From Theobroma cacao (taxonomy: Eukaryota; Streptophyta; Magnoliopsida; Malvales; Malvaceae): DNA of 64,000 bases. Position numbers and translations under genes: made by a program. The notes under the pieces are model-generated. The model saw only the letters and a program-made list of their open reading frames with translations, ran no database searches and was not told the DNA's origin. The DNA is taken from the NCBI RefSeq assembly GCF_000208745.1, contig NC_030854.1, positions 9,882,675 to 9,946,674 on the forward strand, given 5' to 3'. Below, piece after piece: positions 5,655 to 58,238 of the stretch (within the stretch, counting starts at the first letter, position 1; each line of letters opens with the position of its first letter).

Positions 5655-5935
5655 ATGTATCGATACATGCCCTCATGTATCGATACATTCTTGGCATGAA
5701 TAACAATATGAGGTGTTCTAAAGGAATTCTATTGATACATTTAAAGATGTATGGATAGATTTGGAAATTTGATGAACATGTATCGATACATTGTTCAATG
5801 CATAGATACATTTCAAGCAGAGAGCACCTAGGATCATTATGCTTGGAATGTATTGATACATTGCCCCAATGTATCGATACATTTAGTCAAAATATGAGCA
5901 AATTTACCAATACATCGCCAAATGTATCGATACAT
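5655..5935 (+). repeat. Array of paired ATGTATCGATACAT palindromes (D copy 1)
   Basis: Five pairs of a 14-bp palindrome, some degenerate. TCGA-core (or equivalent) starts are 5660/5680, 5732/5752, 5783/5803, 5853/5874 and 5907/5927. Within-pair spacing is 20-21 bp; pair-to-pair spacing is 72, 51, 70 and 54 bp. The spacer in pair 1 is gccctc. Open frames crossing this array are artefacts of the repeat. Confidence 0.9.
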
Positions 5936-6580
5936 CACTGAGGAAAGGCAAAAATAAAAATGGATCTGGGCATCAACCATGCATAAACCCTCTCCTTATT
6001 TTTCTTTCTTTCTCCCTCTACCTTTTTAGAACCCTAAGCACTCAAATAGCATTTGAAGCCTATTTGAGCTAGATCCAAGCTTGGGAAATCGATCCGAAGG
6101 TAAGATAACATGTTTGTACCAATTGATTTTTGATTTAATCGGTTAATAATCTTATATCTAAATATTTTCAAATTTTGTCAAACTCTCTCCCCTTGAGTTT
6201 ATTGGAGATTTGGAGCCTATATTTGGACAACTCAACTTTTTAGGTAAGGATTTAGCTCATTTGTTGGAAGAATGAGCATGTATATTGAATTTAGGTATTT
6301 TTGAAAAGCTAGGATTTTTTTGAAAGCTAGGAAATAAATATTTTTGTGATGTTTTGATGTGTATAAAGAAAAGTTGAAGCTACTTAATGCTATGGTGAGC
6401 CATGGGATGATTGGAGGCCAAGGTATGGAGTTCAAATGTGGGAGTGCCTCTGATTGTCACTATGAGTGGAATTTAATTAAATGCATGTGATGCATCTCAC
6501 ATAATGTATGTGCTGCCATGGTACTTAAATGTTGTGCATATGCCTAGATGAGAATGCCTAGGCTAGAGAATTGATACGTA

Positions 6581-6602
6581 TATGTGTGTGTGTGTGTGCG
6601 CG
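6581..6602 (+). repeat. (TG)n/(CG)n microsatellite
   Basis: A run of TG dinucleotides ends in CGCG inside the D LTR, flanked by repeated TGCCTAG words. Confidence 0.85.
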
Positions 6603-6665
6603 CCTAGAGGTATGTGCCTAACCTAGAGAACAAATATGATTGTATGCCTAGATAAGGATGCCTAG

Positions 6666-9447
6666 TGTAAAACCCGACTCTATAAACACATGTCATGACA
6701 TACATGCACTGAGTAGCATGTTATTACGCTAGGAAAGTTCCTAAAAATAGACGAAACCCGGTATTGTACCTAACGGTACACTTGAGTTGATTTAACCTCG
6801 AACTAGTTCAAATAGGAATCGTAGGATGAAATTTAATATTTTACAGTCCAAGAATGACTAAAAATGATTGTTTGGAGTTCAAGGGTTTATTTGGGGAAAA
6901 ATTGAAAATTTTGTTGTTCAGGGGCAAAATTGTCATTTTGCCATCTAAGATAATAATTTGATCATGGAGTGAAATTTTTGACCAAGATTAACTATTTGGA
7001 GTATAATTTAATGATAGGAAGTGAAAAATTTCAATTTCGGTAATTTTCGAAACATAAAGGTATAACGGTAATTTTGTCGTCTCGGGGTAAAAACCGTAAT
7101 TTTCACCACCCAAAACTTGTCAAAATCATAGGATTTACTTATTTTTGGTATGAATAACTATGGTATGTTAAGTGGTGAAAAATTGAAGTTTAAAGGATGA
7201 AATTTTAAAAATGGGCCAATGGAAAAGTGACACATAGCACTTTTTAATTATTTAATATTATTTTAATGGAAAATCAGCCCATTTAAACCCCACATCAGGT
7301 GATGGCCGGCCATAAGGAGAGAACAAGAGAGAAAATAGAGAGGAAGGAAGAAAAGAGAAAAACCAAAGGAAAACTAGAAAATTCAAAGGGAAAATCACGT
7401 TTTTTGACCGTTTACGCGTCTAACGGTAAGATTTTTCGACTTTAGCTTGATTTCTACCTTTCTTATGCCTTTGTTTCCATTTAGCATGCTTGAGGAGAGA
7501 GATCAAAAAGTACAATCAAGGGCTGGACGAAATTCAAGGGGGATGAATTTGAAATTTTTATGTTTTGATTTTTAGTTAAATTGATCGTTTTAGTTAGTTA
7601 AATGTGTATAGAAATCAAATTGGGCAAGAAAGCATGAAATTTTCACAATACCCACCCTTGGCTGAATGTTAAATGATGTACAATGATGATGAACTGATTT
7701 TTATTCTAAGAGAAATGAAGAGAAAATGATGAAAAATGGTTAAATGTGATAGAAAAACAAAGTGGAAGATTTACCCAATTAATGTCCCATTTTTGATCGA
7801 ATTTTCCAAGGAGGAAAGTGAGCTGATTTTGGTGATTTTAGTGAGTTATTGGCTGATATTTAATGGTTAGAAATGTTGGAGAGAAAATGGGATAATTTAG
7901 AGCTAAAATGGAGTGCGTTAGCAATTTAACTGGTAAAGTGCCAAAAATAGGTTAATACCGCGTTTAAGCCATTTTAGGCTATTGCAATTCATACCATGCA
8001 TTAGTATAGGATTTAAGTCAATTATATCGTGATTTAGCATCAATGTGGTGAATTGTGTAATTTTTTCAATGTGTCTAGGAGGAGAGCCTTTCGGTAAAGG
8101 CAAGGAAGTCGTACCCGACGAACAGTGATCGGGGCACCTAGAAAGCATTTAATTTGTACAAACGGTGAGTAAACCTTTTATTATTATAAATTATCTAGAG
8201 TTTATTTTTAAATGATCTTTATGTATTTTATGAAACGAAAATGAGATTAAAATGGGACTTTTGATGTTTTAGAAATAAATGTGCCAAATAAATTCATTGT
8301 GTTGATTATCTGAAATAAGAAACTTTTAACCATGAAATTGAGTAATTGGAGGCTGCCAATTGTCTTGAAAAATATATTTTCCTATGAATGGCTTATGATA
8401 TATGAGTATATATGTGGCTATATTTGATAATTGCATTGGGAATTTATGTAAGCTGTCTTTTACTATGCAGGCTAGGTAAATAAATAAAAGCCACGTTATA
8501 CTGTCGAAATTTTATTAAAGTTGGTGGGTTTAGTCACTGCAGTGACGAGTTTCCGTGGACTGCCTATTAGAAGGGCATGGTAAACCCGGTTATATAGTTA
8601 CTTCGGTAGTAGATGCGAGGAGGGTAACTCTTGGGGCAGTGTTAGAGTTCACTTCACGTCGAATCCCCACGTGAATGTGTAACTCGGCCAACGCCAAGGA
8701 ACGGCTTGTTTTCAAAACTAACATGTGTTTAACATGTAAATATCTTAACAACCTTGGCGGGCTCGGTTAGATGCCTCGGCCAAGGTATCCCTGAAGATTA
8801 GTTTTTGGCTTGAGCTCTGTTTTTAATAAAAGTCATAAGCCTTAACAACTGTTTTGGTAAACTACAAATATTTTATGGTTTAAGAAATAAATTGAAAATC
8901 TTATGAAATGGTTTGTAATTTGTTGTTTAAACTTGCCTCCATGTTACTCGCCTTTAGATATTTATGATAATGTCTGTTTACTCATTAGGATTGCAAAATC
9001 TCACCCACCTCCTTTCCAAATATTTCAGGCCTGTGGTAGCTTGGAAATACCGATTTTGTCGAGGATTCCAGTTGACCCCTTTATCTAACAAACAGTAGGT
9101 TACTATCACCAACGCTTGGTGTGTATTTACGGGCCACTTGTCATTGCAATTATTATTGTACATTATAACTTTGTAAATTATTGTATGTATGAATTTATTT
9201 TACTTACAAGTGTTTCTATAAATATTGTTTTATATAAAAAGTGCTATATTTTTGTCTTTTGATTTACTTGAGCCGAAAACGACTGGTAATTGTTTAAAAC
9301 AAAATGTTTAAAAACAATTGCTCACAGAAAAGGTAAGAAACTGATATGTAAGCCTTGCGGGGTTCCGATTGGCATTTCGGGCAATGAGTGTCAATCGGGA
9401 CGTCTCGACGGTTGTCATAGGCCCGAGGAAGGTTACGGGTTGTGACA
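6666..9447 (+). repeat. 5' LTR of element A
   Basis: Begins TGTAAAACCCGAC and ends TGTGACA. It matches the 3' LTR at 14378-17141, about mid-90s per cent identical by eye in the stretches I compared, so insertion is moderately old. A CCAAT box lies at 7216-7220 but no clear TATA box follows. Minus-strand frames such as 7918-8148 recur in the other LTR only because the LTRs are copies. Confidence 0.92.
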
Positions 9448-9454
9448 ATTCAGT

Positions 9455-9466
9455 TGGTATCAGAGC
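9455..9466 (+). other. Primer-binding site of element A
   Basis: TGGTATCAGAGC, an exact match to the classical plant initiator-Met tRNA primer site, eight bases after the LTR end. Confidence 0.92.
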
Positions 9467-9646
9467 TTTTGGTTTAAAAACTTATGGTTTTGAAAGAAGT
9501 TTTTGATTTTTAAAGTTCTTGGATTTAAAGTTATTTTAAAATAATTTACAATGTCAGTGTGCCCTAGTTAAGATTAGTTAGTTGCATGTAGTTGCGTATA
9601 GAGTCTTAAGTCGTCTAAACCAATTCCGTTCTTTTTGTAGATCATT

Positions 9647-10980
9647 ATGCCTCCTCGACGTGAGCTACCACCTATCACTAGATCTACTGGTAGGGGAAGA
9701 GGTCGCCCTAGACAGAGTCACCCGAATTTCGTAGAAATGGAGTCGGCTGTGTCTTCTTTTAGAGAAGTTCCTACTCTTGAGTCTACTAACATTCCTGTAC
9801 CTCCTCCACCACTTGTTGCTGCTCTTGGCATACCTGCCAGGTCACCCGAGGCAACTCAAGCATTAGCGACTTTTCTTGCTAATCTTACGGGTCAGGCTCA
9901 GGCTGGTCCAATTCCACTCGCTGTTTTTCCTATAACAGCCCCAGTACCACTACCTCTTATTCCACCCAAACACCGAACGTCTTCATTTCTAAGAAATTGA
10001 AAGAAGCTAGATAGTCAGGTTGCGTCTCATTTACTGGTGAGTTGGATGTGACCGCAGCTAGGGATTGGATTATTCAAGTATCGAAGACACTGACAGATAT
10101 GGGATTAGATGATGAGATGAAATTAAAGGTGGCTACACAGTTATTTGAGAAGAGAGCCCATACTTGGTGGAGTTCAGTAAAGTCTCGCTCTCCTATATCG
10201 TTGGCTTGGACGGATTTCCTCCTAGAGTTCGATGGTCAGTACTACACCTATTTCCATCAGAAAGAGAAAAATAGAGAATTTTTGAGCTTGAAACAAGGGA
10301 ACATGACCATTAAGGAGTATGAAACTTGTTTTAATGAGCTGATGCTTTATGTACCTGAGTTGGTGAGATTGGAGCAAGACCAGGTAAACTATTTTGAGGA
10401 AGGACTCCGTAATGAGATACGGGAGCGTATGATAGTGACCGACAATGAGTCATATAAGAAAGTTGTGCAAATGGCCTTACGAGCTGAGAAGCTCACTACT
10501 GAGAATAGACGGATTTGAGTTGAGTTTGCAAAGAGAAGGAATCCGCCTACGTTCCAAGGTCAGTCATCAAAGAGAGGCAAAGATTCAACATTTACTGCAG
10601 GAAGTACTACCTCAGCGTTTATGGCATCCACTAGACCTCCATCTCAGCAGTCACAGTCGAGATCTTCTAGATTTGATCGGTCAGTGATGAATGGTCAGAG
10701 AGGGACTTCAGGAGGATTGGACAGATGCCGTAATTGCGGAGGATTTCATGTTGGGTCATGTAGAAAGCCTGTAAGATGTTTTCAATGCTACCAATAGGGG
10801 CATATCCAGAGAGATTGTCCTCAGTTGAGACGGGGTATAGTAGCTACTTCTACTCCTCTGACTCATCCTAGTATACCGTGGAGAGACACTTCGGGATCAC
10901 AGTCTAGACAAGGCCCAGTCATACGATCAAGCATGAGGAGTAATACCCCAGAGCAGCCATCTTCTAAACCGTAGCCCTAG
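9647..10980 (+). pseudogene. gag: Element A gag, frameshifted
   Basis: Starts at ATG 9647 with a basic, proline-rich N-terminus (MPPRRELPP). The frame changes near 9975-10040 and then reads a full Retrotrans_gag domain (about 10045-10515; W of ARDWI, TWWSSVK, FYEGLR-like FEEGLRNEI). A stop at 10516 (TGA, expected CGA) precedes a Ser/Gln-rich linker and two zinc knuckles from 10726: the first has the spacing C-x2-C-x3-H-x3-C, the second is a normal C-x2-C-x4-H-x4-C broken by a TAG at 10795. Gag would assemble particles and bind the element RNA. Confidence 0.88.
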
Positions 10981-11334
10981 ATTTCGACCAGGGTTTTTGC
11001 AGTGACTGAGGATGAAGCCCGAGTTCGACCTAGCACAGTGACAGGTACTATGAATGTGTTTGATAAAGATGCACATGTTTTGATAGATTCGGGCTCCGAT
11101 AGATCGTACGTGAGCATATCATTTGCATCATTCTCAGATAGGAACCTATCACCATTAGCGGAAGAGATTGTAGTGCATACTCCTCTAGGTGAGCGGTTAG
11201 TAAGAAATACGTATTATAGAGACTGTGGTATTAAAGTTGGGGAAGAAGAATTTATGGGTGATTTAATCCCTTTGGAGATTCGGGACTTTGATTTGATCTT
11301 GCGTATGGATTGGTTGTCCACTCATTGAGCAAAG
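10981..11334 (+). pseudogene. Element A aspartic protease
   Basis: The frame 11002-11328 contains the retropepsin active site VLIDSGSDRSYVS (about 11075-11115), followed by the LPLGE-like THTPLG-type flap region and the terminal DLILRMDWLSTH block typical of gypsy proteases. The catalytic D-S-G is intact. The frame is the same as gag and continues after one TGA at 11326-11328 (expected CGA/Arg), so Gag and protease were originally one polyprotein. Confidence 0.85.
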
Positions 11335-12998
11335 GTGGATTGTTTTAAGAAAGAAGTGATTCTCCAGAGTTCAGAGGGAGCAGAAATTGTATTTATGGGG
11401 GGGCGTCGACTATTACCGTTTTGTGTAATCTCGACCCTCAAAGCTTTGAAATTGGTGCGAAAGGGATATCTGGTATACTTGGCTCACGTGATTCATATAT
11501 CGAGGGAGGAACCTAAGTTAGAGAATGTCCCCATAGTAAGTGAGTTCTCTGATGTATTTTCTGATGAATTACTGGGACTTCTTCCGATTGTGAGTTCGAA
11601 TTCACCATTGACTTACTTTCGGGTACTGCTCCTATCTCTATTCCTCCATATAGAATGGCTCCGGCAGAGTTGAAGGAGTTGAAAGTACAATTGCAAGAGT
11701 TAGTGGAAAAGGGTTTTATACGCCCTAGTACATCTCCGTGGGGAGCACCGATTTTATTTATGAAAAAGAAAGATGGTACACTTCGGTTATGTATAAATTA
11801 CCGACAGCTTAACAGAATGACCATTAAGAACAAGTATCCGTTGTCGAGGATTGATGAACTTTTTGATCAATTACAGGGAGCTACAGTGTTTTCTAAGGTT
11901 GATTTGAGGTATGGGTATCATTAGTTGAGGATTAAGGAACAGAATGTACCCAAGACAGCGTTCAGGACTCGGTACGGTCATTATGAGTTCTTAGTCATGC
12001 CTTTCAGGTTAACTAACGCACCGGCAGCTTTTATGGATCTCATGAACAGGGTGTTCCACCCTTACTTGGACAAGTTTGTTATTGTGTTTATTGATGATAT
12101 CTTGGTTTACTCGAGAGATAATGATGAGCACGCTACCCACTTGTGTATAGTATTACAGACTTTGCGGGAAAGATAGTTGTATGCAAAGTTTTCGAAGTGT
12201 GAGTTTTGGTTACAGGAAGTGGTATTCTTGGGACACGTAGTATCGGGAGCTGGAATATATGTTGATCCCTAGAAGATAGAGGCAATTTTACAATGGGAGC
12301 AACCTAAGACAGTGATGGAGATTCGTAGTTTCCTCAGATTAGCCGATTATTATCGGAGGTTTGTTCAAGGGTTTTCCTTAATAGCAGCTCTTTTGACCCA
12401 TCTAATTCATAAGGGAGTTAAGTTTGAGTGGGATAATGTTTGTGAGAATCGATTTCAAGAGCTAAAATATCGGTCAACCTTCGATCCCGTTTTAACACTT
12501 CCTGTGAGTTGTAAGGGATTTGTAGTTTATAGTGATGCCTCAAAGTTGGGGTTAGGGTGCGTACTGATGCAGGATGAAAAAGTTATGGCTTATGCTTCTA
12601 GATAGCTAAAGAAGCATGAAGCTAATTACCCTACCCATGATTTAGAGTTAGCAGCTGTGGTGTTTGCTTTAAAAATCTGGAGGCATTACTTGTATGGTGA
12701 GCATTGTCAGATATTTATGGATCAAAAGAGTTTAAAATATTTGCTCACTCAGAAGGAGCTTAATTTGAGGCAAAGGCGATGGTTGGAGTTGATAAAAGAT
12801 TATGACTTGGTGATAGACTATCATCCGGGAAAGGCAAACGTTGTAGTTGATGCCTTAAGTTGTAAGTCTTCATCGTCTTTAGCCGCACTTTCGAGTTGTT
12901 ATTTTCCAGCATTATTAGAGATGAAATCTCTTGGGGTCTAGTTGAGAAATGGTGAGGATGGATCCTTATTGGCAAGCTTCATTGTGCGACCTTCGTTA
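11335..12998 (+). pseudogene. pol: Element A reverse transcriptase and RNase H
   Basis: A frameshift near 11560-11655 leads into the RT domain: the SPWGAPILF motif (about 11735), INYRQLN (about 11795), [13 protein letters not shown] (about 11995) and the catalytic box [10 protein letters not shown] (about 12090). The RNase H part follows ([12 protein letters not shown] about 12525, the [12 protein letters not shown]lu about 12640, DQKSL, and a DALSCK end). TAG stops occur at 11922, 12174, 12270, 12603 and 12939, most at positions where the family has Gln. Catalytic aspartates are retained. It would synthesise element cDNA inside the particle. Confidence 0.9.
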
Positions 12999-14338
12999 CT
13001 AAATCAGATCAAGGACATTTAGAGGTCTGATGAGGTGTAAAGAAAAGAAATTTAAAAATTGACCGATGGGGGAGTCAGTGAGTTCAGATTCAGAGAAGAT
13101 AATGTCTTGGTGTTTAGAGACCGAGTTTGTGTTCTTGAGGGAAACCAACTGAGACAGGCGATCATGGAAGAAGCCCATTCTTCTGTATGCATTACATCTC
13201 GAAAGCGCCAAGATGTATAGGACTATCAGGGAGAATTATTGGTGTCCAGGTATGAAGCGAGACGTAGCAGAATTCGTAGTGAAGTGTCTCGTATGTCAGC
13301 AAGTTAAGGCGGGCATCAGAGGCCAGCAGGTACACTTCAGTCTTTACCTGTTCCTGAGTGGAAATGGGAGCATGTAACTATGGATTTTGTTTTGGGATTG
13401 CCGCGGACACAAAGGGGAAATGATGCAATCTGGGTGATCGTAGATCGGTTGACTAAGTCCGCTCACTTTCTTGCTATCCATAGTACATACTCTATTGAGA
13501 AGCTGGCTCAGCTCTATATAGATGAGATTGTGAGGCTACGTGGAGTTCTAGTTTCTATAGTGTCAGATCGAGATCCTAGATTCACTTCTCGATTCTAGCC
13601 AAAATTTCAAGAAGCTCTCGGAACCAAATTGAAATTTAGCACTACTTTTCACCCACAGACGGATGGTCAGTCAGAGAGGACTATCTAGATTATGGAGGAT
13701 ATGTTGAGGGCCCGTACGAAGCTTTATATGGAAGGAAATGTCGTACTCCACTTTGTTGGGATGAAGTGGGTGAAAGAAAGTTAGTTAGTGTGGAATTGAT
13801 CGATCTAACTAATGACAAGATCAAGGTTATACGAGAAAGGCTGAAAGTAGCCCAGGATAGGCAGAAGAGCTATGCAGATAAATGGAGAAAAGACTTGGAG
13901 TTTGAGATCGATGATAGAGTTTTTCTTAAGGTTTCTTCATGGAAAGGTTTGATTCGATTTGCGAAGCGAGGAAAGCTTAACTCGAGGTATATTGGACCAT
14001 TACGAATCATTGAGAGAATTGGACCAGTGGCTTATCGGTTAGAACTACCTTTGGAGTTAGATCGGATCCACAACGTTTTCTATGTCTCCATGCTTAAGAA
14101 ATATGTACCAGATCCCTCTCACATCCTCAAAGCACCTCTGATCGAGTTGCATGACGATTTAAAGTTTGAGGTGCAACCTGTGAGTATCTTGGATCGAAAG
14201 GATCGAGTATTGAGGAACAAGAGTATTTCAATGGTCAAAGTGTTGTGGAAAAGTGCTCGAATGGAGGAAATGACATGGGAAGTAGAGCATCAGATGAGGA
14301 ACCAATACCCGCATCTATTTGTCGAATCCGGTAAGTGA
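12999..14338 (+). pseudogene. Element A integrase with chromodomain-like tail, internal deletion
   Basis: The N-terminal zinc-binding region is frameshifted (about 13000-13330). The core begins at MDFVLGLPR (13380), includes [10 protein letters not shown] (second Asp, about 13565) and FHPQTDGQSERT (catalytic Glu, about 13650-13680), with stops at 13596 and 13686. At about 13712 the sequence jumps directly to YEALYGRKCRTP, so the segment that normally separates these blocks is missing. The C-terminal frame 13766-14338 reads to the family's end (PVSILDRKDRVLRNK, TWEVEHQMRNQYPHLF), the chromodomain-like targeting module. Confidence 0.88.
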
Positions 14339-14364
14339 AATTTTGAGGTCAAAATTTTATTTTT

Positions 14365-14377
14365 AGGGGGGTAGAAT
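14365..14377 (+). other. Polypurine tract of element A
   Basis: The purine run aggggggtagaa just before the 3' LTR is the expected plus-strand priming site. Confidence 0.8.
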
Positions 14378-17141
14378 TATAAAACCCGACTCTATAAACA
14401 CATGTCATGACATACATGCACTGAGTAGCATGTTATTACGCTAGGAAAGTTTCTAAGAATAGACGAAACCCGGTATTGTACCTTACGGTACACTTGAGTT
14501 GATTAACCTCGAACTAGTTCAAATAGGAATTGTAGGATGAAATTTAATATTTTACAGTCCAGGAATGACTAAAAATGATTGTTTGGAGTTTGAGGGTTCA
14601 TTTGGAGAAAAATTAAAATTTTGATGTTTAGGGCCAAAATTGTCATTTTGCCACCTAAGATAATAATTTGATCATGCAGTCAAATTTTTGATCAAGATTA
14701 ACTATTTGGAGTATAATTTAATGATAGGAAGTGAAAAATTTCAATTTCGGCAATTTTCGAAACATAGGGGCAAAACGGTAATTTTGTCACCTCGGGGTAA
14801 AAACGTAATTTTCACCACCCAAAACTTGTCAAAATCATAGGATTTATTTATTTTTGGTATGAATAACTATGGTATGTTAAGGGGTGAAGAATTGAAGTTT
14901 AAAGGATGAAATTTTAAAAAGGGCCAATGGAAAAGTGACACATAGCACTTTTTAATTATTTAATATTATTTTAATGGAAAATCAGCCCATTTAAACCCCA
15001 CATCAGGTGATGGCCGGCCATAAGGAGAGAACAATAGAGAAAATAGAGAGTAAGGAAGAAAAGAGAAAAACCAAAGGAAAACTAGAAAATTCAAAGGGGA
15101 AATCGCGTTATTCGACCGTTTACGCGTCTAAAGGTAAGATTTTTTACTTTAGCTTGATTTCTACCTTTCTTCTGATTTCCATTTAGCATGCTTGAGGAGA
15201 GAGATCAAAAAGTGATATCAAGGGCTGGACGAAATTCAAGGGGCAGGAATTTAAAATTTTTATGTTTTGATTAAATTGATAGTTTTAGTTAGTTAAATGT
15301 GTATAAAAATCAAATTGGGCAAGAAAGCATGAAATTTTCACAATACCCACCCTTGGTGGAATGTTCAATGATGTACAATGATGATGAACTGATTTTTATT
15401 CTAAGAGAAATAAAGAGAAAATGATGAAAAATGGTTAAATGTGATAGAAAAACAAAGTGGAAGATTTATCGAATTAATGTCCCATTTTTGACCTAATTTT
15501 CCAAGGAGGAAAGTGAGCTGATTTTGGTGATTTTAGTGAGTTATTGGCTGATATTTAATGGTTATAAATGTTGGAGAGAAAATGGGACAATTTAGAGTTA
15601 AAATGGAGCGCGTTAGCAATTTAACGGGGTAAGGTGCCAAAAATAGGTTAATACCGCGTTTAAGCCGTTTTAGGCTATTGCATTTCATACCATGCATTAG
15701 TATCGAATTTAAGTCAATTATATAGTGATTTAGCATCAATGTGGTGAATTGTGTAATTTTTGCAAAGTGTCTAGGAGGAGAACCTTCCGGTAAAGGCAAG
15801 GAAGTCGTACCCGACGAACAGTGATCGGGGCACTTAGAAAGCATTTAATTTGTACAAACGGTAAGTAAACCTATTATTATTGTAAATTATCTAGAGTTTA
15901 TTTTTAAATGATCTTTATGTATTTTATGAAATGAAAATGAGATTAAAATTAGACTTTTGATGTTTTAGAAATAATTGTGCCAAATAAATTCATTGTGTTG
16001 ATTATCTGAAATAAGAAACTTTTAACCATGAAATTGAGTAAATAGAGGCTGCCAATTGTCTTGAAAAATATATTTTCCTATGAATGGCTTATGATATATG
16101 AGTATATATGTGGCTATATTTGATAATTGCATTGAGAATTTATGTAAGCTGTCTTTTACTATGCAAGCTGGGTAAATAAATAAAAGCCACGTTATACTGT
16201 CAAAATTTTATTAAAGTTGGTGGGTTTAGTCACTGCAGTGATGGATTTTCATGGACTGCCTAGTAGAGGGGCACGGTAAATCCAGTTATATAGTTACTCC
16301 GGTAGTAGAGGTGAGGAGGGTAACTCCTGGGATAGTGTTAGAGTTCACTTCACGTCGAACCCCCACGTGAATGTGTAACTTGGCCAATGCCAAGGAACGA
16401 CTTGTTTTCAAAACTAACATGTGTTTAACATGTAAATATCTTAACAACCTTGGTGGACTCGGTTAGATGCCTCGGCCAAGGTATCCCCAAGGATTAGTTT
16501 TTGACTTGAGCCCTGTTTTTAATTAAAGTCATAAGCCTTAACAACTGTTTTGGTAAATTACAAATATTTTATGGTTTAAGAAATAAATTAAAAACCTTAT
16601 GAAATGGTTTATAATTTGTTGTTTAAACTTGCCTCAATGTTACTCGCCTTTAGATATTTATGACAATGTCTGTTTACTCATTGGGATTACAAAATCTCGC
16701 CCACCTCCTTTCCAAATATTTCAGGCCTGTGGTAGGTTGAAGATACCGATTTTGTCGAGGATTCTAGTTGACCCCTTTATCTCACAGAAAGTAGGTTACT
16801 ATCACCAACGCTTGGTGTATTTACGGGCCACTTGTCATTGTAATTATTATTGTACATTATAACTTTGTAAATTATTGTATGTATGAATTTATTTTACTTA
16901 CAAGTGTTTCTATAAATATTGTTTTATATAAAAAATGCTATATTTTTGTCTTTTGATTTACTTGAGCTGGAAACGACTGGTAATTGTTTAAAACGGATTG
17001 TTTAAAAATGATTGCTCACAGAAAAGGCAAGAAACTGATATGTAAGCCTTGCGGGGTTTCGATTGGCATTCCGAGCAATGAGTGTCAATCGGGACTTCGC
17101 GGCAGTTGTCATGGGCCCGAGGGAGGTTCCGGGTCGTGACA
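14378..17141 (+). repeat. 3' LTR of element A
   Basis: Homologous along its length to 6666-9447. The terminal TG has become TA (tataaaacccgac). It ends CGTGACA, followed directly by the target duplication cctag. Confidence 0.92.
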
Positions 17142-17498: not shown

Positions 17499-17508
17499 TT
17501 TTTTTTTT

Positions 17509-17901: not shown

Positions 17902-20900
17902 TTAAAAACGAACATAAGGTAAATTAATTCTATCTAATTTGAGAATACCTCTGAGCTGATCTTCTGCTTGTGAGAATACCTTCAGATTTTGGTGCGTATG
18001 CCCCTGATTCGCGAGATGGTCTGCTGCCTGGTTTCCTTCTCTATGGATGTACGAAATCCGAAAAGAGAAACTACTTAAGGATTTACGAATAGAGGCTAGT
18101 AAGTACCGGGTTCTAGATGATCCATGCTGACCCTCTTTAATCATGTGTACCACTACTTTCGCATCCATTTCAATCCATAGTCTCGAAATACTATATTCAG
18201 TACACAACAATAGACCTCTGTGAAGAACCATTAATTCAGCTTGTAAAGAATCACACGATCCAAAATTTTCGGAGAAACCAAAGATCAAAGTACCAGTATG
18301 GCCCCGAAGAAGTCCTCCTCCAACAGCATTCTGAAAATTGTGCTTTGAACTACCATCAACATTCAACTTAAACTCACCTGTTGATGGTTTATGCCAAGAG
18401 AAAATTCTTGGTGGATGTGGGACTGTCTGCTGAAATACAAGACCCCATGTCTGCGCAATCTGAAGATCTCCCCTCCATTGCCACCGTTGGAATTGTCTCC
18501 CATGAAATAGCTGGTGGATGAGCTTGAGTACTCTCCACACCACTCTGTTAGGATACATACCAAGGTTCCTATGTTTTGCATCGTTCCTTTCAACCCATAA
18601 GAACCAAAAAATGAATAAAGGCATTAACGTGCGTATGTGTCCTCTTTTCGTATAATCTCCGGAGTACAGCCATGCCCACATAATTTGATGAACAGTCTGG
18701 GGATGAATAATGTTGATTTGGAAGAATTTCGTGAAATAAATCCAAACCTGTGTGGCAATTGGGCATTCCCACATGACATGCAGGAGAGACTCATCTGAAT
18801 TGCAATGTTGACATTTAGAAGCTAACTGGAAACCCTTGGTTTTCAACCGCAAATCCACTAGGATCCAGTCCTGAAATAACCTCCAAAGGAAGAAAGAGAT
18901 AGTTAGAGGAATGCTTTTATGCCAGATTAAATTAAACACGGGGTTTACCGACTGGCGTTGACGAACTATCTCCCAAGCGGACTTAGAAGTGAATTGCCCA
19001 TCTGAGGTAGGCACCCAAAAAGCCCTATCATTATTAAGAGGATCAATCGGAATGTTTAGAATTTTTGCGACCACTTCCTCTGGCAGCACATTGTTCAGCT
19101 TATCCACGTTCCATGTACCATCATCGTGAAAATAGGAAACTCTCGTCATTGATGATGCAAATACTGGGAAATGAGTGACCAAGGGGGTATCACCCATCCA
19201 ACAATCATGCCAAAAGAATAACTCTCCCTTACCAATCCGCCACCTAATGTAATTCTCTGCGGTTGAACAGCTGGCAAGCATTCGTTTCCATGTTTGTGAA
19301 TCATGGAGTTTCGCCTGGACGTACCTCAAAATTTGGGCCGTACAATATTTAGTCCGCATAAATCGCGTCCAAATGCTGTTACAAGACACATACCTCCACC
19401 AAAGCTTCATGCTAAAGGCCTCAAACACATCACCTAATCCTCGGATGCCTAATCCTCCCTCACTGGATGGAAATGTGATCTTTTTCCACGCACTCCAATG
19501 AATGTGTCTAGTGCCTGCTGAACCTCCCCATAAGAAGTTGTTGAACATTCTGTCAATTTTCTCAATCACACATATAGGGGGCTGAAGGACTTGGAGCAAA
19601 TAGATAGGTAAGGAAGACAGAACACTCCTTAATAAGGTAATTCGCCCACCCGAGGATAGAATTTTATTGTCCCATCCTTCTATGCGCTCCCGAATCTTTT
19701 CCACCAGATCATCAAACAACATTACCTTTTTCGGACCTTTATACAGCGGCACCCCCAAATATGTGACAGGCAAGCATTTATGGGTGAAGCCGGTGGCTTG
19801 AGAGATTATCTGTTTGCGCGAAGTTGCCACATTCCGATGAGTGATGAAGTAACTTTTAGAGTGGTTTATTCGTTGTCCAGAAATCTCCTCATAATCTTGC
19901 AAGATTGTAAGAATTTTCTACAAGGAGGATTTGGCGCCATTGGTGAATATTAGGATATCATCTGCAAATGCCAAGTGGCTGATTGACATGGAGCAATCTG
20001 AAGCATAGTGAAGAGATGGATATTGAGTAAAGAGTGCATTTAATCCTCGGGAAAGATAATCGACAGCCAGGATGAATAAAAGAGGAGAGATGGAGTCGCC
20101 CTGTCTGAGTCCTCTTTCTGACTTGAAATATCCCACAGCACCACCATTAATCAGCAAAGAGAACCAGCAATTTGATATGCAACGACGGATCATGCAAATC
20201 CATTGAGAATTAAATCCGAACTGCTCTAGCATTTTGAAAAGGAAATCCCATTCAAGTCTGTCATATGCCTTCATCATGTCCAACTTGAGAGCTATATTTC
20301 CACCTTTTGACTTTCGATCAATCTTCCCAATAAGTTCTTGTGCAAGTAGGATGTTGTCGCTAATCAATCTCCCCCCTACCAAGCCACTCTGATTATCTGA
20401 AATGATGGAAGGAAGCACCTTTGCAAGCCGATTAGCTAAGATTTTAGTAATGATTTTATTCAAGACATTGCAAAGACTTATCGGTCTGAAATCACTCCAT
20501 GTCGATGCATTGTGCTTTTTGGGCAGCAGCACAATTGTTGTGGACGTGATTCCCCTTGGAAGGTCAACTCCATGAAAAAAGTCAACTACTGCGTCGAGGA
20601 GGTCATTAGCAACTATGTCCCAACATTGTTGGTAAAAATAAGAAGAGAAACCGTCAGGACCAGCAACACTATCCTTATCAATATTAAAAACTGCTGCTTT
20701 CAGCTCCTCCTTGGATGGCTCTCCACATAAACTCAGATTATCGTTATCAAAGATTATAGCAGGAATCAATGAAGCATCAAACCTGGACATATTACACGGT
20801 TCCTTCTTCATGAGAGAGGAAAAGAATTCCACTGCAGATGATTTAACTGCATTCGGTTCTTTAATCCAACTGCCATCTGAATTTTGAATCTTGAATATGT

Positions 20901-26274: not shown

Positions 26275-26365
26275 TTAGTCGACTGACTTGGTTGACTAAG
26301 TTGATTCTGTTTCTGGTTTGCAGATCTTGGTAGAGAGCAATTAGTCGACTGTCTTGGTCAACTAA
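26275..26365 (-). repeat. GTCGAC palindrome pairs, element B left LTR
   Basis: Two pairs of TTAGTCGACT-like sites, with cores at 26279/26292 and 26345/26358. The within-pair spacing is 13 bp and the pair-to-pair spacing is 66 bp. They are upstream of the TATA box. The geometry differs from the 21-bp spacing in element C. Confidence 0.8.
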
Positions 26366-27121
26366 GTTGATTCTGTTTCTCAAACTCTTCAACCCTCCAT
26401 TTCTCCAATTTGAAACTTTGATCAACCAACATTCTTCCTTGTTTCACCAATAAGCTTCCTCTTTGTTAGACAGTTACATCTTGTTGATTTTTGTCACGAC
26501 CCAAATTTCGGGCCATGATCGGCGCATGGGCCCAATTGACATAGTCCACTAAGCCCAAGCAAGCTTATCAATCTAACATGTTCATCATTCCATCATAAAC
26601 TACTAAGTCACATTTCATAACTTAGGATCAAAGTAATATTAAACAATGCCAACTCATACTGGCATACCAATTAAGTGTACATTATCTACAACATGTATCT
26701 TAATAATTTACATCAAGTTTGTCTATACATCTAAAAAAGAAGACTCAATTTCTAGAGGAGGGACTCGGATGAATGTACAGCTACTAAATGCCGAGACACC
26801 TACCAAAAGATGGATACAAGTCTACAAGGACACCTTGTCTTAGTTACCGGCTGTCTCATGATCTGAAAACATGAAGTTGAAAACGGTGAGTATAAACCCA
26901 GTAAGTGAACAAGAAAAGGAAGAAGCAACAACAAGGGAGAATTTAAAATCATGATGCACTTGTTTCAAAACAATGCAATTTAGTTCCATTCATATTAAAA
27001 ACCCTTCATCAAGCCCGAGAGTGACTAATCATTTGAAAATCATGAATCTATACATAACAAACCATTTGAAGAATGAAAGCTTCAATGGTACGCAAGCAAG
27101 TCAAATATGACAACGAATCTT

Positions 27122-27534
27122 CGCTGCAACGGAAAGGCATTCTCGCTGCAGCGACGTTGGGATTAAGTTATTAGCCGAACGAGGGTTTTTTAACTGGCCA
27201 AGGGTTTCTCACTAAACTTCCTCATTTTAAACTTAACTCATCTAGTCCTTAATGTTGGAAGTCCATGCTCAAATAGGGTAGCAAAGAAGTTAAAAATAGG
27301 GCAGCAATTGGACAAGGTAGGAGACAAAACAGAAAGTTTTTCACTGCAGCGAAATTATGACCCAGAAACAGAATGATTCTCGCTACAACAAAATTTTAAC
27401 CTAGAAACAAAAAGTTTCTCACTACAGTGAGAATAAATTTCGCTGCAGAGAGAAGCTACAGTGTCATTCTCGCTGCAGCGAGTTTTCGACCAGTCTACAC
27501 CTCTAAACCCGAGAGTTTCTCGCTGCAGCGAGAA
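27122..27534 (-). repeat. Array of TCGCTGCAGCGA palindromes in S1
   Basis: CTGCAG-type cores at 27124, 27146, 27344, 27383, 27422, 27443, 27473 and 27523, several flanked by TCTCG...CGAGA arms. The spacings include 22 and 21 bp but also 39, 30 and 50 bp, so the pairing is less regular than in D and C. Confidence 0.8.
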
Positions 27535-27780
27535 ACAGGGCACCAATGAAAAATTTACCCTTCTTCCCAAAGAAAAACCACCCTACTAAAGTGTCCAAAC
27601 CAATATGAAACGCATAACAATTTTCCACAGTTTAACATGTCAAGTTTCACATGCATTACAACCATATACCTTTACTTATTAATTTCCTATATCACACATA
27701 TTTACATATGTATATATGTATACGTATACCCATCATCATCATGCACACCATCCCATCATCATCATCACCAGCTAATGCTC

Positions 27781-27892
27781 ATTCCCTGCTCGCACATGGC
27801 TGGGTCATTACTGGGTTATGCGCACTTCCTACTCGCACATAACCGGGTCATCCTCGGCTTATGCGCACTCCCTACTCGCACATAGCCGAGTC
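27781..27892 (+). repeat. 43-bp tandem repeat with an internal stem in S1
   Basis: Three copies of CTCGCACAT, at 27789, 27832 and 27875, mark a 43-bp period. The middle unit contains an imperfect hairpin (CATAACCG / CGGCTTATG, loop about 9-10 bases). A CAT-repeat stretch precedes it at about 27731-27770. Confidence 0.85.
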
Positions 27893-28719: not shown

Positions 28720-28727
28720 TATTTATA
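28720..28727 (-). promoter_or_regulatory. Putative TATA box of S1
   Basis: CCTATAAATATCC on the minus strand, about 390 bp from the LTR 5' end, a normal place for an LTR promoter. Confidence 0.6.
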
Positions 28728-36813: not shown

Positions 36814-36818
36814 TCTAA

Positions 36819-39863: not shown

Positions 39864-39907
39864 ATGGATCCTTCCTAAGGATGTTAAGCCTTAAAAACAG
39901 GGAACTA

Positions 39908-39919: not shown

Positions 39920-39921
39920 AT

Positions 39922-40982
39922 TGTTGGTCCCTATAATATGTGCTAGAGGGAGGGTTAATAGCACAATTTGGCTCTTAACAATATTGGAAACAAATTTTTA
40001 GAACTTAAGAAAATAAAAACAGAGTATAAGATGCATAACAATTTAGAGTGGTTCGGTCAAAGACCTACATCTACTACCTTGATTATCCAACCAAGGATTT
40101 TCTCACAAATCCACTATGAACAGGTGAAATTCACAAGCTCTCACCAAGCTTTAAAATAGCTTTTACCAGGCTCAACCAAAACCTTTTACACTAGTTTTTC
40201 ACGAGCTAAACTAAAACCCCAAGGTGGTGTTCCAAGGCTTAACCACAACCTACAACAATCAAGTTATCCCAAGCTTGAATAACCCCTTAGAGTGACTTTC
40301 TCACTCTAAGAATACAAGAGAAGTAGTAAAAGAAAGTACCTATGATCACTGGATGATCTGATTGGTACAAGATTGAGTGCTAAATACAAATGCAAAGAGT
40401 AGGCAATTAAGTGCAGACAAGTGCAATGAAGTTTTTCTGGTTTTTCTACCTTCTATAGCTCAAATCTCATTCAAGGCTTCAAAAACTTGTTTCTCATTGT
40501 TGGAAGACCCTTTTATACTTGGAGATGCAACTCTGATGGCAGTTTGACAGTTATGGCTGTTGAAAATAGTAGAGGATGAGTTCTAGCCGTTAATCTGTCT
40601 TGTAGTGCTCTGGTTTAAATTGCAGATAGAGAGCTCTTAGTCGACTGACTTGGTCGACTAAGTTGATTATGTTTCTGGTTTACAGATCTTAGTATAGAGC
40701 AGTTAGTCGACTAAGTTGATTCTGTTTCTCAAACTCTTCAGCCCGTCATTTCTCCAATTTGAAACTTTAATCAACCAACATTTTTCCTTGTTTCACCAAT
40801 AAGCTTCCTCTTTGTTAGACAATAACATCTTATTGATTTTATCCCTCTTTTTTTTTCAAGAATACTCTTTGAAGAGTTAATAAATTAATTTCATATATTA
40901 ATTTCCTGCACACTCAAGTAAAGGTATTAGACACACATAAATGGGAATGTTTTATTATCATCAAAAACTAATGGAGCCAACA
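39922..40982 (-). repeat. Element B right LTR (5' LTR of the element)
   Basis: 1061 bp, starting TGTTGGTCCC and ending GCCAACA on the plus strand, followed by the target duplication ggatt. TATAAAAG is at 40510-40517 (minus). GTCGAC sites are at 40641/40654, with a lone site at 40707. Compared with the left LTR, the second partner of pair 2 is deleted. Confidence 0.92.
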
Positions 40983-41951
40983 GGATTTTCCAAACCAAAT
41001 AACTATAAACAGCGGAATTCCTAAGCTCCCACCAAGCTTTTACAATAGCTTTTCACAAGCTTAGCCACAACCTTTAATAATGGTTTTTCTTGGGATCAAC
41101 CAAAACCCAAAACTAACTTTTCCTAGGCTGAGTTAGAACCTATACACTTAATCAAGCTAACCCAAGCTTGATCAATCCCTTTAGAGTAACTCGCTCACTC
41201 TAAGTAATTAAGGAGAACAGAAATAAAGAAGTATCTATGATCACTAACCTAATCTGAATGGTACAAGATGAAGTGTTTAACTCTATTACAAGGATTGGAG
41301 TGAAGTGCAAAAAGTATGTAGAGAATTTTTTCTATTTTTGAGCTCTTTTTTATCTTGGAAGCATCTAATAATGTTCTTAGCCGTTGGAAGTGCCTTATAC
41401 ACTTGAAAAACTAATTCAAATGGATGTTTGATAGTTTTTGACCGTTGGGAAACAGTTTGGAGTCAATTCTAGCTGTTAATCTGTCTTCTAGCATTCAAAT
41501 TCAAATCTTCAAACAGAATGCTCTTTGTCGACTAACTATGCTTCTTAGTCGATTAAGTCGTCTTTGTCATTGAACCCAGTTTCTAGCAGTAAGCTCTTAG
41601 TCGACTAACTATGCTTCTTAGTCGACTAAATCATCTCTATCTCTAAACTCAATTTCTGGCAGTAAGCTCTTAGTCGATTAACTAAGCTTCTTAGTCAATT
41701 AGGTCATCTTTGTCTCTGAACCCAGTTTTTTCACTTTTGAGTTTTAGTTGACTAACTCCCTTGGTTATCTAACTAAGAGGCTTCTGTTTTGTGGCTCAAT
41801 TATAGCTCCTCATTCTTATGAGTTTTAACATTTGGTTTTTAGTGATTAATTCATTTTTGACATACATTTTCATCCTGCACACTTAAGTAGTTTGGTTAGA
41901 CATAAATTAGTGGGAATGTTTTATTATCATCAAAAACTAATGGAGCCAACA
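40983..41951 (-). repeat. Element C left LTR, inner part
   Basis: Resumes after B with ggattttccaaacc, as in the right LTR near 52432, and ends GAGCCAACA. It contains a putative TATA (TATAAG, minus, 41394-41399). Confidence 0.9.
41524..41776 (-). repeat. Array of paired TTAGTCGACTAA palindromes, element C left LTR
   Basis: Four pairs with core starts at 41528/41549, 41601/41622, 41674/41695 and 41748/41769. Every within-pair spacing is 21 bp, and pair-to-pair spacing is 73, 73 and 74 bp. The array sits 130-380 bp upstream of the putative TATA on the minus strand. The right LTR has three pairs with the same 21-bp spacing. Confidence 0.92.
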
Positions 41952-41967
41952 ATCTCCCCTTTTTTTA
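41952..41967 (-). other. Polypurine tract of element C
   Basis: TAAAAAAAGGGGAGAT on the minus strand, directly next to the LTR. Confidence 0.8.
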
Positions 41968-52138: not shown

Positions 52139-52181
52139 TAGGATTTTCCTTCAGATGTTAAGCCTTGAGAAAGAGGGATAG

Positions 52182-52194
52182 GCTCTGATACCAC
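52182..52194 (-). other. Primer-binding site of element C
   Basis: TGGTATCAGAGCC on the minus strand, two bases inside the LTR: an exact initiator-Met type site. Confidence 0.9.
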
Positions 52195-53008
52195 TTGTTG
52201 ATCCCAAATAAATGTGCTAGAGCGGGTGAATAGCACTTTTCGATTCTCACTAAACTTGATTTCTAATTGGAGGCAAATTGAAGGTCAATTATGAGAAATT
52301 TGATGCAAGGTAAAGAAATGATTTAAAAAATAATGAATGTGAAAAATAAAACAGAGCAGATAATACACAAAGATTTATAGTGGTTCTGTCAAAGACCTAC
52401 ATGCACTACCTTGATTGTTCAACCAAGGATTTTCCAAACCAAATAACTATAAACGGTGGAATTCCCAAGCTCCCATCAAGCTTTTACAATGGCTTGTCAT
52501 AGGCTCAGCCACAACATTTAATAATAATTTTTCCCAAGATCAACCAAAACCCAAAACTAACTTTTCCTAGGCTGAGTTAGAACCTATACACCTAATCAAG
52601 CTAACCCAAGCTTGATCAATCCCCTTAGAGTGACTTGTACACTTTAAGTAATCAAGGAGAACATAAATAAAGAAGTACCTGTGATCACTAACCTAATCTG
52701 AATGGTACAAGATGAAGTGCTTAACTTTATTACAAGAATTGGAGTGAAGTGCAGAAAGTATGTAGAGAGTTTTTACTATTTTTTAGCTCTTTTTTATCTT
52801 GGAAGCATCTAATAATGTTCTTAGCCATTGGAAGTGCCTTATATACTTGAAAAACCAATTCTGATGGATGTTTGATAGTTTATGACCGTTGGGAAACAAT
52901 TTAAAGTCAGTTATAGCCGTTAATCTGTGTTTTAGTATTCAAATTCAAATCTTCAGATAGAATGCTCTTAGTCCACTAACTATGCTTCTTTGTCGATTAA
53001 GTCGTCTC

Positions 53009-56178: not shown

Positions 56179-56497
56179 GTCTTTGTCTCTGAACTTGATT
56201 TCTAGCAGTAAGCTCTTAGTCGACTAAGTATACTTCTAAGTCGATTAAGTTGTCTCTGTCTTTGAACCCGATTTCTTCACTTTTGAGTTTTAGTTTACTA
56301 ACTCCCTTAGTTATCTGACTAAGAGGCTTTTGTTTTGTGGCTCAATTGTAACTCCTCATTCTTATGAGCTTTAACATTTGCTTTTTAGTGATTAATTCAT
56401 TTTTGACATACATTTTCATCTTGCACACTCAAGTAGTATGGTTAAACATAAATGAGTGGGAATGTTTTATTATCATCAAAAACTAATGGAGCTAACA

Positions 56498-57900
56498 ACC
56501 TCTAGATTGATTATGTTCTGTTGATAGTGCCTTAGAAACTTGAAGGCATGTAGAACTATACTGAGCTTAGAGATGACTAAAGCTTGTTGAATTTGAATAT
56601 GATTTGATGTGGACATATGGAATGTCACAGACATGATGGCTTGATTTGTGGCTATGTGTTCCGTCTGAAGGATGAATTTCGAACGTTGATATGATTTCTA
56701 GTTAAGTGGAGTCCCACGCCTTGTGACCTTTGTGTGCCTGCAAAGATGGTGGTAAGCAAGGACAGTGGTATTAGTCCTGCCGTAGTGCTTTGATGCCACC
56801 CATCCAAGATTACTTTAGGTGATGCCGACCATCTGAGATTACTCTAGTCGATGACTTTGCTGTTTCGCTAGTTGCTTTGGTGATATGCGTGATTTGATTG
56901 TATGCCTGTTGCTTCTGCAAGCGTGTGATTTGTTCTCCACCAACAGTTGTGCTTTGTTTGTGATTTGTTTCTCAATCGATTAGCCACCATGCATGATTTG
57001 ACCATGTCCAAGGCAGGACCACTCATTTGATTTCATTTGACTATGATGACATGCATCGGGCTTGGCATGATTTGATTTCAATATGAAATTGTGGTGACTG
57101 ATTATGAACGATATTTGTTGAAAAGCTTGAGAAAAGCAATTTATATGTGAACAAAATTTAAGGTTGGGTTCAGCAACTAGGGTGTGCCTATGAAGCCTAG
57201 TTTCATGATAATGGCTTTAAAGCTAAGCCTTGAATTGATATGATTTGATGTGAGGACATAGAACGTGGAAATTGTGGATATGATACGTCATTGAAATGTG
57301 ATCTAATAAAACTTAATATGATGAGTTGTGCATGTAGGATATTAGGATGATCCGCACACCTTTGGAAATGTTTGAATACGAAAGTCTTATGGCTATATAA
57401 GCCTAAATATATTTTATATGTAAAATTATAATGCTATGATAGCATCCCTCACTGAGTATTAGATGACACACCCCTCTATTGTACCATGTGCAAAAAAGAG
57501 AAGCTATAGGGTTATGTGGCAAGTGTCATCGATTGGACGAACACATAATTGGCATTTGGTAGGTCTCCTTCCCATTGTGTCACTCCGCTGAGTCTATATA
57601 GGCCTCCCGCCTTCCATTTTGGTTAGCTTGTAAAATATGTCAAGCACGATGTGCCATTTGAATTGTATAATGGTTGTTATGTACAAACCTGATTTGATGG
57701 CCAATGTATGGCCTTTGAATACTTGTATGGATTGTGAGCTAGGGATAATGTAATATATCTGAATTTTATTATGGCTATTTGCTTATTAAATCCCTTGGTA
57801 TTTATGTTGCATGATTTTGGATTCTAAGGATTGCTCGGGTTTAGTGGGCTTGCTTGCTGGGCTCGTGCACCGGTCATAGACCCTGGGTTGGGTCATGACA
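56498..57900 (+). repeat. D LTR copy 1, final segment
   Basis: Follows element C and matches the end of D copy 2 (for example GGATGAATTTCG-ACGTTGAT near 56680 and 59185, and GCTCGGGTTTAGTG-GCTTGC near 57834 and 60234). It ends GGGTCATGACA at 57900. Divergence between the copies is roughly a fifth by eye. No gene. Confidence 0.65.
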
Positions 57901-57946
57901 GTTTAGGCTTTAAAAGGAACAATTTTTACAAATCTATACCTAAGAA

Positions 57947-58238
57947 GTCGACCTTAGTGCATAAAGGGTTGACCTTGTGAAGTAAAAAGCAAGGGAAGTC
58001 TTGCATTTTGGTCCAAGATCGACTATATGCCCTCTATAGTCGATCTTAGGAAGGAAAAATGGGAGAAATGTAAACCTTCTGGTCCAAAATTGACTATAGA
58101 CCCTCCAAAGTCGATCATATGAAGAAAATTCTAGTCCAAGATCGACTATAAACCCTCCATAGTTGATCTTGAGAAAAGGAAATGGGTGAAACATAAAATC
58201 TTCAAGTCCAAGATCAATTACTGACCCTTCATAGTCAA
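57947..58238 (+). repeat. Array of paired GATCGACTATA-type palindromes (D copy 2)
   Basis: Five pairs with core starts at 57948/57969, 58019/58040, 58090/58111, 58142/58163 and 58214/58235. All pairs are 21 bp apart. Pair-to-pair spacings are 71, 71, 52 and 72 bp. The second pair is AAGATCGACTATA and TATAGTCGATCTT around tgccctc. The other spacers are gaccctcc, aaccctcc and gacccttc. Confidence 0.92.

Follow-up and report, generated by a model that had tools for sequence, protein, structure and literature searches.

Helix-phased arrays of paired dyad sites in Sirevirus-like and other LTR retrotransposons of Theobroma cacao

LTR retrotransposons of Theobroma cacao carry arrays of 12–16 bp sites in which either the single site or the pair has dyad symmetry, and at least four different site sequences are found in one architecture, in Sirevirus-like LTRs and in other, probably Ty3/gypsy, LTRs. 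A pair of sites 19–22 bp apart, about two helix turns, is present in all 10 linker-homology clusters, and among the other site distances whole turns, from 3 to 8, are favoured; the sites would therefore lie on one side of the DNA. The best reading, to which a fair probability is given, is that of a helix-phased enhancer platform for a putative dimeric DNA-binding protein, swapped as U3 modules. The arrays were located in a window of 64,000 nucleotides (NC_030854.1, positions 9,882,675 to 9,946,674; Table 1). Three palindromes occur 2991, 1828 and 2244 times in the genome of the window, versus 27, 53 and 0 times for the reversed controls.

Table 1. Arrays, pairs and associated LTR parts in the window (positions are those of the window)
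Feature	Position	Strand	Description
D LTR 1, 5' part with D1 array	4790..6666	+	read by eye
D1 array	5655..5935	+	five pairs of TGTATCGATACA-type sites, within-pair distance 20–21 bp
C1 other LTR	26275..26365	-	two pairs of 13 bp at a distance of 66 bp; departs from the geometry
D3 array	27119..27533	-	TCTCGCTGCAGCGAGA type, inside solo LTR 26492–29118
C1 linker pair TTAGTTGACTAA/TTAGTCGACTAA	32362..32392	-	19 bp, between pol and env-like ORF
C1 LTR sites	40637..40714	-	13-bp pair, exception to the geometry
C2 (Sirevirus-like) LTR array	41524..41776	-	TTAGTCGACTAA type, four pairs
C2 second LTR, one further pair	52968..53000	-	21 bp; cut off by nested LTR
C2 second LTR, array remainder	56216..56322	-	two pairs, 21 bp
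D2 array	57944..58240	+	five inverted pairs, 21 bp each; first GAAGTCGACCTT-like, then AAGATCGACTATA/TATAGTCGATCTT
D2 leader	58400..58595	+	FA-type, 86–87% identity to 11 FA loci
D2 LTR body	58600..60296	+	FB-type; LTR end GTCGTGACA at 60296

The palindrome arrays described in the earlier note are real and lie where it had placed them, but single D2 sites (GATCGACTATA) are not palindromic, the inverted repeat being formed by the D2 pair only. An exact search combined with a site scan found exact D1 cores (ATGTATCGATACAT) at 5655, 5675, 5778, 5869 and 5922, with five more, degenerate sites, giving within-pair distances of 20, 20, 20, 21 and 20 bp and pair-to-pair steps of 72, 51, 70 and 54 bp. 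The TCGA-type centres of D2 lie at 57949.5/57970.5, 58020.5/58041.5, 58091.5/58112.5, 58143.5/58164.5 and 58215.5/58236.5 (58091.5 and the last pair being read by eye), 21 bp apart in five of five pairs, with steps of 71, 71, 52 and 72 bp. Both geometries are those first reported. The same note gave 21 bp for every pair of element C, which holds for the three clear pairs of C2 (17 or 21 bp in the fourth, depending on register; steps 73, 73 and 74 bp) but fails in the sister element C1, whose pairs are centred at 40642.5/40655.5, 26280.5/26293.5 and 26346.5/26359.5, with the next site 53 bp away. Site distances in D3 are 50, 30, 21, 39, 39, 198 and 22 bp, and a fourth, unrelated palindrome, CTCGCTGCAGCGAG, likewise forms pairs of 21–22 bp. 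Judged by eye, the D3 array seems to follow a TATA-like box, sitting in the leader or an intron, and not to precede it.

Helical phasing was analysed in 66 arrays of at least three sites, taken from 71 locus entries and grouped by linker homology into the 10 clusters. Deletions between identical sites hand down the geometry, and distances within a cluster are thus not independent. The 92 cluster-unique distances give a Rayleigh R of 0.55 at 10.2 bp, against a maximum of 0.338 in 3000 draws from a null of unclumped integers, which is too lenient; for the 64 distances of at least 25 bp, a comparison of all periods between 5 and 25 bp puts the best one at 10.35–10.45. A stricter test, in which neighbouring values are merged and the null comes from uniform draws, leaves only 23–47 values. 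R is then 0.545 at 10.1 bp with all merged values (n = 47; reached in 0 of 4000 draws), 0.505 at 10.0 bp for elementary distances of at most 65 bp (n = 39; fraction 0.00025) and 0.586 at 10.85 bp for those of 25–65 bp only (n = 23; fraction 0.002). The best period varies from 10.0 to 10.85 bp by subset and from 9.65 to 10.65 bp by family, and the D3 family alone gives a fraction of 0.084. Hold-out coordinates form small sets with a weaker signal (fractions 0.22, n = 8, and 0.025, n = 12); a hold-out D3 list gives 0.015 (n = 7), three of its six places overlapping loci already fetched. Off-phase distances exist (13, 14, 16, 35, 37, 44 and 47 bp). In the Sirevirus-type arrays (24 loci), 62 of the 122 distances of at most 130 bp between neighbouring sites are 19–21 bp, 33 are 52–53 bp and 12 are 62–63 bp. 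The proposed phasing thus survives the collapse of homologous arrays into clusters, beyond the random null, and it favours a protein on one face of the DNA over RNA structure alone.

Why the sites differ between families is partly explained by the exchange of whole control regions. The matches of D2 in the genome fall in two classes (40 of 600 candidates scored), FA and FB, and the bodies of FA LTRs do not match FB bodies. On sequence comparison D2 is a mosaic of an FA array and leader on an FB body, with the junction near 58595–58605; its array shares 72–74% identity with the modules of two FA-family loci, L030 and L023. FA-type 5' ends on FB bodies are also found in L007 and L008, with different breakpoints; in all three loci, the 5' and 3' parts of the LTR come from different families, the array having moved between LTR families within a 5' module (U3 and leader). 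Eight FB-family LTRs have the site type of D1, and the D1 array stretch is 66–75% identical to them (the FB tally leaves out L012, an FB-type locus with a match starting at query 368). D1 and D2 had been taken for one LTR family with coordinated replacement of the site. Their likeness is confined to the 3' part (6235–6590 versus 58529–58904, 64%), whereas arrays and leaders come from different modules, and replacement in place was therefore rejected in favour of exchange of the 5' module by recombination. Drift from one to the other of the types TCTATCGATAGA and TTTATCGATAAA, a slower process, does seem to take place in related members (L015, L019). Another candidate, a swap across superfamilies in L029 (FB body with a Sirevirus array), was rejected as a nested insertion, because its 5' part, 83.5% identical over 747 bp to the TTAGTCGACTAA locus L036, stops at a Sirevirus-like LTR end. 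D LTR 1 has a degenerate start, presumed to lie inside a Ty1/copia integrase gene, and by eye this start is paired with 60297–60301 through TSD-like AGGAA/AAGAA.

Element C agrees with the repeated motif described for Sireviruses and is Sirevirus-like in its make-up. Its gag is of copia type in C1 (Retrotran_gag_2, 1.8e-20), env-like ORFs occur in C1 and C2, and the two elements are 76–77% alike across long internal stretches. In Sireviruses, the palindrome recurs in many copies along the upper LTR half and varies between elements, and extra copies precede the env-like gene (Bousios et al. 2010, PMC2829016). Such extra copies are present in C1, where the linker pair (32362/32381) sits between the ORF 32430–32960 and the env-like ORF 31221–32063; the C2 linker holds degenerate sites only, for example 44751/44772. 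In C2, whose LTR of about 980 bp starts near 41956, the sites lie about 180–430 bp into the LTR, beginning slightly under the published range. The motif has been called Sirevirus-specific, with a CGG-CCG core in all elements but Tnd-1 (PMC2829016); the core of element C is GTCGAC, and Tnd-1 (ACAATCGATTGT) has a TCGA core like the sites described here. The carriers of D1, D2 and D3 are of another kind: their LTR stretches gave no match to the C LTRs and the 24 TTAGTCGACTAA loci, save one of 65 bp in L035, which carries FA-type LTR sequence too. On this comparison they are not Sireviruses, and their LTR ends, the one feature placing them in Ty3/gypsy, resemble those of the chromodomain element E. 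A CCCTC-like word, formerly thought to be common to the spacers, is found in 12 of 38 FA-type and 3 of 43 FB pairs and in none of the Sirevirus-type (0/65), other-LTR (0/33) and D3-type (0/43) pairs, and these counts, which like the arm-complementarity test below leave out the C1 LTRs, led to its rejection.

The geometry could also stem from neutral tandem-repeat dynamics, in which an ancestral pair is duplicated and deletions between identical sites keep few distances, no phase being selected. The C2 array is indeed a clean 73-bp tandem repeat (83% match), the indels that distinguish FB members measure, as seen by eye, about 21, 53 and 72 bp, sizes that recombination between sites would produce, and two big clusters take in 51 of the 66 arrays. 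Yet the seven clusters beyond these two and D3 (sizes 4, 2 and five singles, of TGTATCGATACA type, L068 giving arrays to two) have no detected linker homology to each other, and all seven have the 19–22 bp distance, several also 29, 39–41 or 49–52 bp, plus some off-phase values. Odd and even turns both occur, so that the distances are not merely multiples of one 20.5-bp unit. Sites also outdo linkers in conservation: in nine FB LTRs, mean identity is 0.896 in non-CpG site columns (inflated, as these were picked by resemblance to the site) and 0.710 in within-array linkers. Neutral dynamics are considered unlikely.

A hairpin reading like that put forward for maize Sireviruses, in which each pair would form an RNA or DNA stem-loop that serves, or is recognised by, the small-RNA machinery, appears distinctly unlikely. 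In its favour, five of six folded window stretches have z-scores between -2.89 and -8.51 (-1.03 in the sixth), the D2 sites are inverted as pairs and not singly, and a small-RNA excess is reported at maize Sirevirus palindromes (PMC10760457). Arms match those of their own pair better than those of other pairs in the same array in G (9.69 versus 9.27) and A (7.98 versus 7.22), with 0 of 2000 permutations reaching this in each, but G and A arrays share ancestry and the result thus counts few events. The co-variation of arms that the earlier note wished to see tested is confined to these two, since in T (fraction 0.525) and D3 (0.29) complementarity is not specific to the pair; doubly decayed cores are complementary in 17 cases and not in 18, and whole-turn spacing between pairs is needless for a hairpin. 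The earlier alternative of a dimeric protein or a structured RNA thus tilts, through the phasing, towards a DNA-bound protein, stem-loops as sole explanation being unsupported in T and D3. A further scheme, in which an element-encoded protein would bind the arrays and remove DNA methylation, site and protein co-evolving, is modelled on VANC proteins, which bind short motifs in the noncoding tandem repeats of VANDAL elements (PMC5735166). The arrays are repeated and lineage-specific like VANDAL motifs, TGTATCGATACA arrays are carried by FB LTRs and also by loci for which no homology to these LTRs was detected, and the central CpG of FB sites decays fast (mean identity 0.531), which suggests that sites are methylated when silent. 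Against this, no encoded binder was identified. The env-like ORFs have Transposase_32 as their sole match, under the cut-off of that model, and in L073, the single FB internal candidate that was read, no stop-to-stop ORF exceeds 107 aa. The passages used of PMC5735166 describe neither pairing nor phasing of VANC motifs. Such a VANC-like system is very doubtful here.

Palindromic motifs in Sirevirus LTRs were known, as the earlier note said, from the 2010 report (PMC2829016), whose authors could identify no common site for a single binding factor and left the role of the palindromes open. Because differences of palindrome between Sireviruses were published there, part of the novelty claimed for a conserved geometry with changing sequence falls. 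What is left is a like architecture in non-Sirevirus LTRs, with other cores, for which no report was found among the matches listed in open-licence literature, and the phasing, since the sections and passages of the main text of PMC2829016 mention neither pairing nor helical phase. In maize, Sirevirus LTR palindromes are small-RNA hotspots (Bousios 2016, via PMC5311732 and PMC10760457), set as here in a palindrome-rich, fast-evolving cis-region of the LTR; they are explained there by secondary structure, whereas the whole-turn spacing seen here points to a DNA-bound protein, and maize Ty3 elements are generally without an obvious peak of such structures (PMC10760457). VANDAL elements resemble the present case in having short motif arrays that change between related elements, one motif being common to an unrelated element, but they are DNA transposons with an encoded binder and a non-palindromic motif (PMC5735166). 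Several different U3 regions within one LTR family are described in Tnt1/Retrolyc1 (PMC1838419) and in crapaud (PMC10787394), where template-switch recombination is discussed as the cause. This modularity resembles FA/FB, with no palindromic array kept across the swap as far as these sources go, and the word for palindrome is absent from both main texts. Three other papers with 'palindrom' in their text (PMC10167742, PMC12016029, PMC11302176) do not, in the parts concerned, deal with LTR palindromes. The only listed open-licence match to TGTATCGATACA concerns a nematode protein, and an exact scan of viral contigs with the D1-type pair (33 letters) gave no match.

On balance, the arrays are probably cis-regulatory platforms in LTR control regions, for a putative dimeric or tetrameric binder, exchanged as U3 modules. 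Such a DNA-binding protein, host- or element-encoded, would occupy paired sites cooperatively and drive or de-silence the LTR promoter, and different site sequences could correspond to different members of one protein family. Families would switch site by acquiring the U3 of another family, most simply when reverse transcription of two co-packaged RNAs involves strand transfer from one to the other, and symmetric drift of sites may offer a second route. A bolder view, rather unlikely as it stands, is that LTR retrotransposons of different superfamilies depend on one fast-evolving family of dimeric DNA-binding proteins reading dyad pairs two turns apart; the geometry would be the conserved interface and the letters a changeable lock, with platform swaps allowing escape from silencing or competition. 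The phasing common to Sirevirus-like and non-Sirevirus LTRs suggests that spacing is the conserved feature, and thousands of sites represent a large genomic load of ready-made putative binding platforms.

The window consists of LTR elements nested in one another, and an exact search together with a site scan placed the arrays of paired sites where the earlier note had read them (further features are listed in the table). The geometry it described held for both arrays of the D LTRs, with sites 20-21 bp apart within pairs and steps between pairs of 72, 51, 70 and 54 bp in D1, and with 21 bp and steps of 71, 71, 52 and 72 bp in D2. The 21-bp pairs attributed to element C were recovered in one sister element, C2 (steps of 73, 73 and 74 bp), where a fourth pair measures 17 or 21 bp according to register, but not in its Sirevirus-like sister C1, which has pairs at 13 bp and the next site at 53 bp.

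Features of the nest and its arrays (window positions)
Feature	Positions	Strand	Remarks
D3 array, palindrome TCTCGCTGCAGCGAGA	27119-27533	minus	in solo LTR D3
Tandem repeat of 43 bp	27771-27893		in D3 LTR, adjoining palindrome array
Third copy of first D2 pair	63261-63355		84% to 57904-57999; AAAGTCGACCTT-type sites, 21 bp apart; truncated by LTR beginning near 63357
Linker between two D1 pairs	5770-5890		partly inverted, giving a single long hairpin fold, z -8.51
Nest, 55 kb	4789/60302		apparently within one Ty1/copia integrase gene; reading ends at VGYPKG on left, picks up at TKGYYFYSP on right; flanked by 5-bp near-repeat AGGAA/AAGAA
Two D LTRs	57901-60296 and 4790-57900		seemingly adjoining, without internal region between; 57900 is a GTCATGACA end, start at 57901 not LTR-like
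Element E	6667-17141		Ty3-type gag and integrase C-terminal part; chromodomain match below its cut-off
LINE-like	17902-24419	minus	within nest; ORFs resembling endonuclease, RT and RNase H, read by eye

A copia gag was found in C1, to which C2 is 76-77% alike across long internal stretches; both carry env-like ORFs, with a Transposase_32 match below its cut-off. One C1 site pair sits between the pol-end ORF and the env-like ORF, and the placement of sites in LTR and linker is that of the Sirevirus repeated motif (RM) in the passages of PMC2829016 that describe it. C1 and C2 are here termed Sirevirus-like. The D LTRs have GTCGTGACA or GTCATGACA as their last bases, resembling the ends of element E, and we infer the D superfamily from these ends only. 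Compared with the C LTRs, the D1, D2 and D3 stretches gave no match.

Throughout the genome (324,851,811 bases, 431 contigs), TTAGTCGACTAA occurs 2991 times, TGTATCGATACA 1828 times and CTCGCTGCAGCGAG 2244 times, versus 27, 53 and 0 for the reversed controls. Loci taken from the motif searches were those first listed, all on the contig labelled C1, and form a non-random sample. Among 24 Sirevirus-type loci, adjacent distances up to 130 bp fall at 19-21 bp (62/122), 52-53 bp (33/122) and 62-63 bp (12/122). The TGTATCGATACA loci (15, of which 11 distinct, three regions having been fetched repeatedly) show distances mostly of 19-22, 29, 39-41, 49-52, 59-61 or 71 bp, and a few at 14, 35, 37, 43, 44 or 47 bp.

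For the phase test, arrays of fewer than three sites were dropped, leaving 66 from 71 locus entries; with sites masked, these were grouped by linker homology into 10 clusters (sizes 27, 24, 4, 4, 2 and five of one array each), and a distance of 19-22 bp occurs in every one. Counted once per cluster, the distances (n=92) gave a Rayleigh value of 0.55 for a period of 10.2 bp, against at most 0.338 among 3000 null draws, and the 64 of at least 25 bp a best period of 10.35-10.45 bp within the 5-25 bp tried. In a stricter version, with neighbouring distance values merged, 0 of 4000 null draws reached the observed value for all distances (n=47, 10.1 bp) or for those of at least 25 bp (n=31, 10.35 bp), and the fraction was 0.00025 up to 65 bp (n=39, 10.0 bp) and 0.002 at 25-65 bp (n=23, 10.85 bp). 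The proposal that sites stand at whole helix turns is supported by pooled and merged distances, and by array families T (0.0006), G (0.0068) and A (0.0022) tested singly on unique distances before the linker-homology collapse, but not by D3 alone (0.084; 22 of 24 D3-type loci lie in one cluster). Hold-out coordinates were weaker, giving 0.22 (n=8), 0.025 (n=12) and 0.015 (n=7), the last set partly overlapping fetched loci and so not wholly independent.

The pairs might act as stem-loops or as protein-binding sites. RNA folds beat shuffles in five of six window stretches (z below -2.8), and arms of a pair complement each other better than those of other pairs of the same array in G and A (0/2000 permutations each), but not in T (0.525) or D3 (0.29). 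Hairpins give no reason for whole-turn spacing between pairs, and protein binding is therefore favoured: the sites would be putative protein targets retaining pair-level symmetry. Several FB-family members, which share ancestry, have some G pairs with symmetric outer variants (TCT far left, AGA far right). Doubly decayed cores numbered 17 complementary and 18 non-complementary among those listed, a weak test because post-insertion decay is neutral. Across nine FB LTRs, mean identity was 0.896 in non-CpG site columns and 0.710 in within-array linkers, a contrast inflated by selecting site columns for site resemblance, and 0.531 at the central CpG; such fast CpG decay suggests that silent copies are methylated.

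A genome search with D2 sequence 58400-59040 (40/600 candidates scored) gave at least 42 matches, which outside the window form two classes, at query ~1-206 (family FA) and ~200-640 (FB). L007 and L008, to which two short matches belong, are, like D2, FB bodies bearing FA-type arrays and leaders, and they switch to FB earlier than D2. With at least two breakpoints, the 5' module has therefore been exchanged, and this, instead of the coordinated site replacement put forward before, accounts for the D1/D2 difference. L015 and L019 are 75% identical, and their TCTA and mostly TTTA sites, respectively, look like drift in place. Among 17 of 18 FB loci (L012 excluded), sites are TGTATCGATACA in eight, TCTATCGATAGA in two, mixed TTTATCGATAAA/TCTA in two, AAGATCGACTAT-like in two, TTAGTCGACTAA in one and none clear in two. 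The TTAGTCGACTAA (TTAG) array was rejected as a swap, being a nested Sirevirus-like LTR. TGTA and TCTA/TTTA groups have the FB body in common; under forced alignment their array stretches, sites included, are 42-57% identical, versus 61-84% within TGTA and 57-75% within TCTA/TTTA, which may reflect either exchange or long divergence. Modular U3s are already described, in passages of PMC1838419 for Tnt1 and of PMC10787394 for crapaud.

In open-licence literature, no report was found of phasing in this architecture, of its presence in non-Sirevirus LTRs, or of its passing between families by module exchange. The paired-site architecture is already known in part, as the Sirevirus RM, and it is real and widespread.
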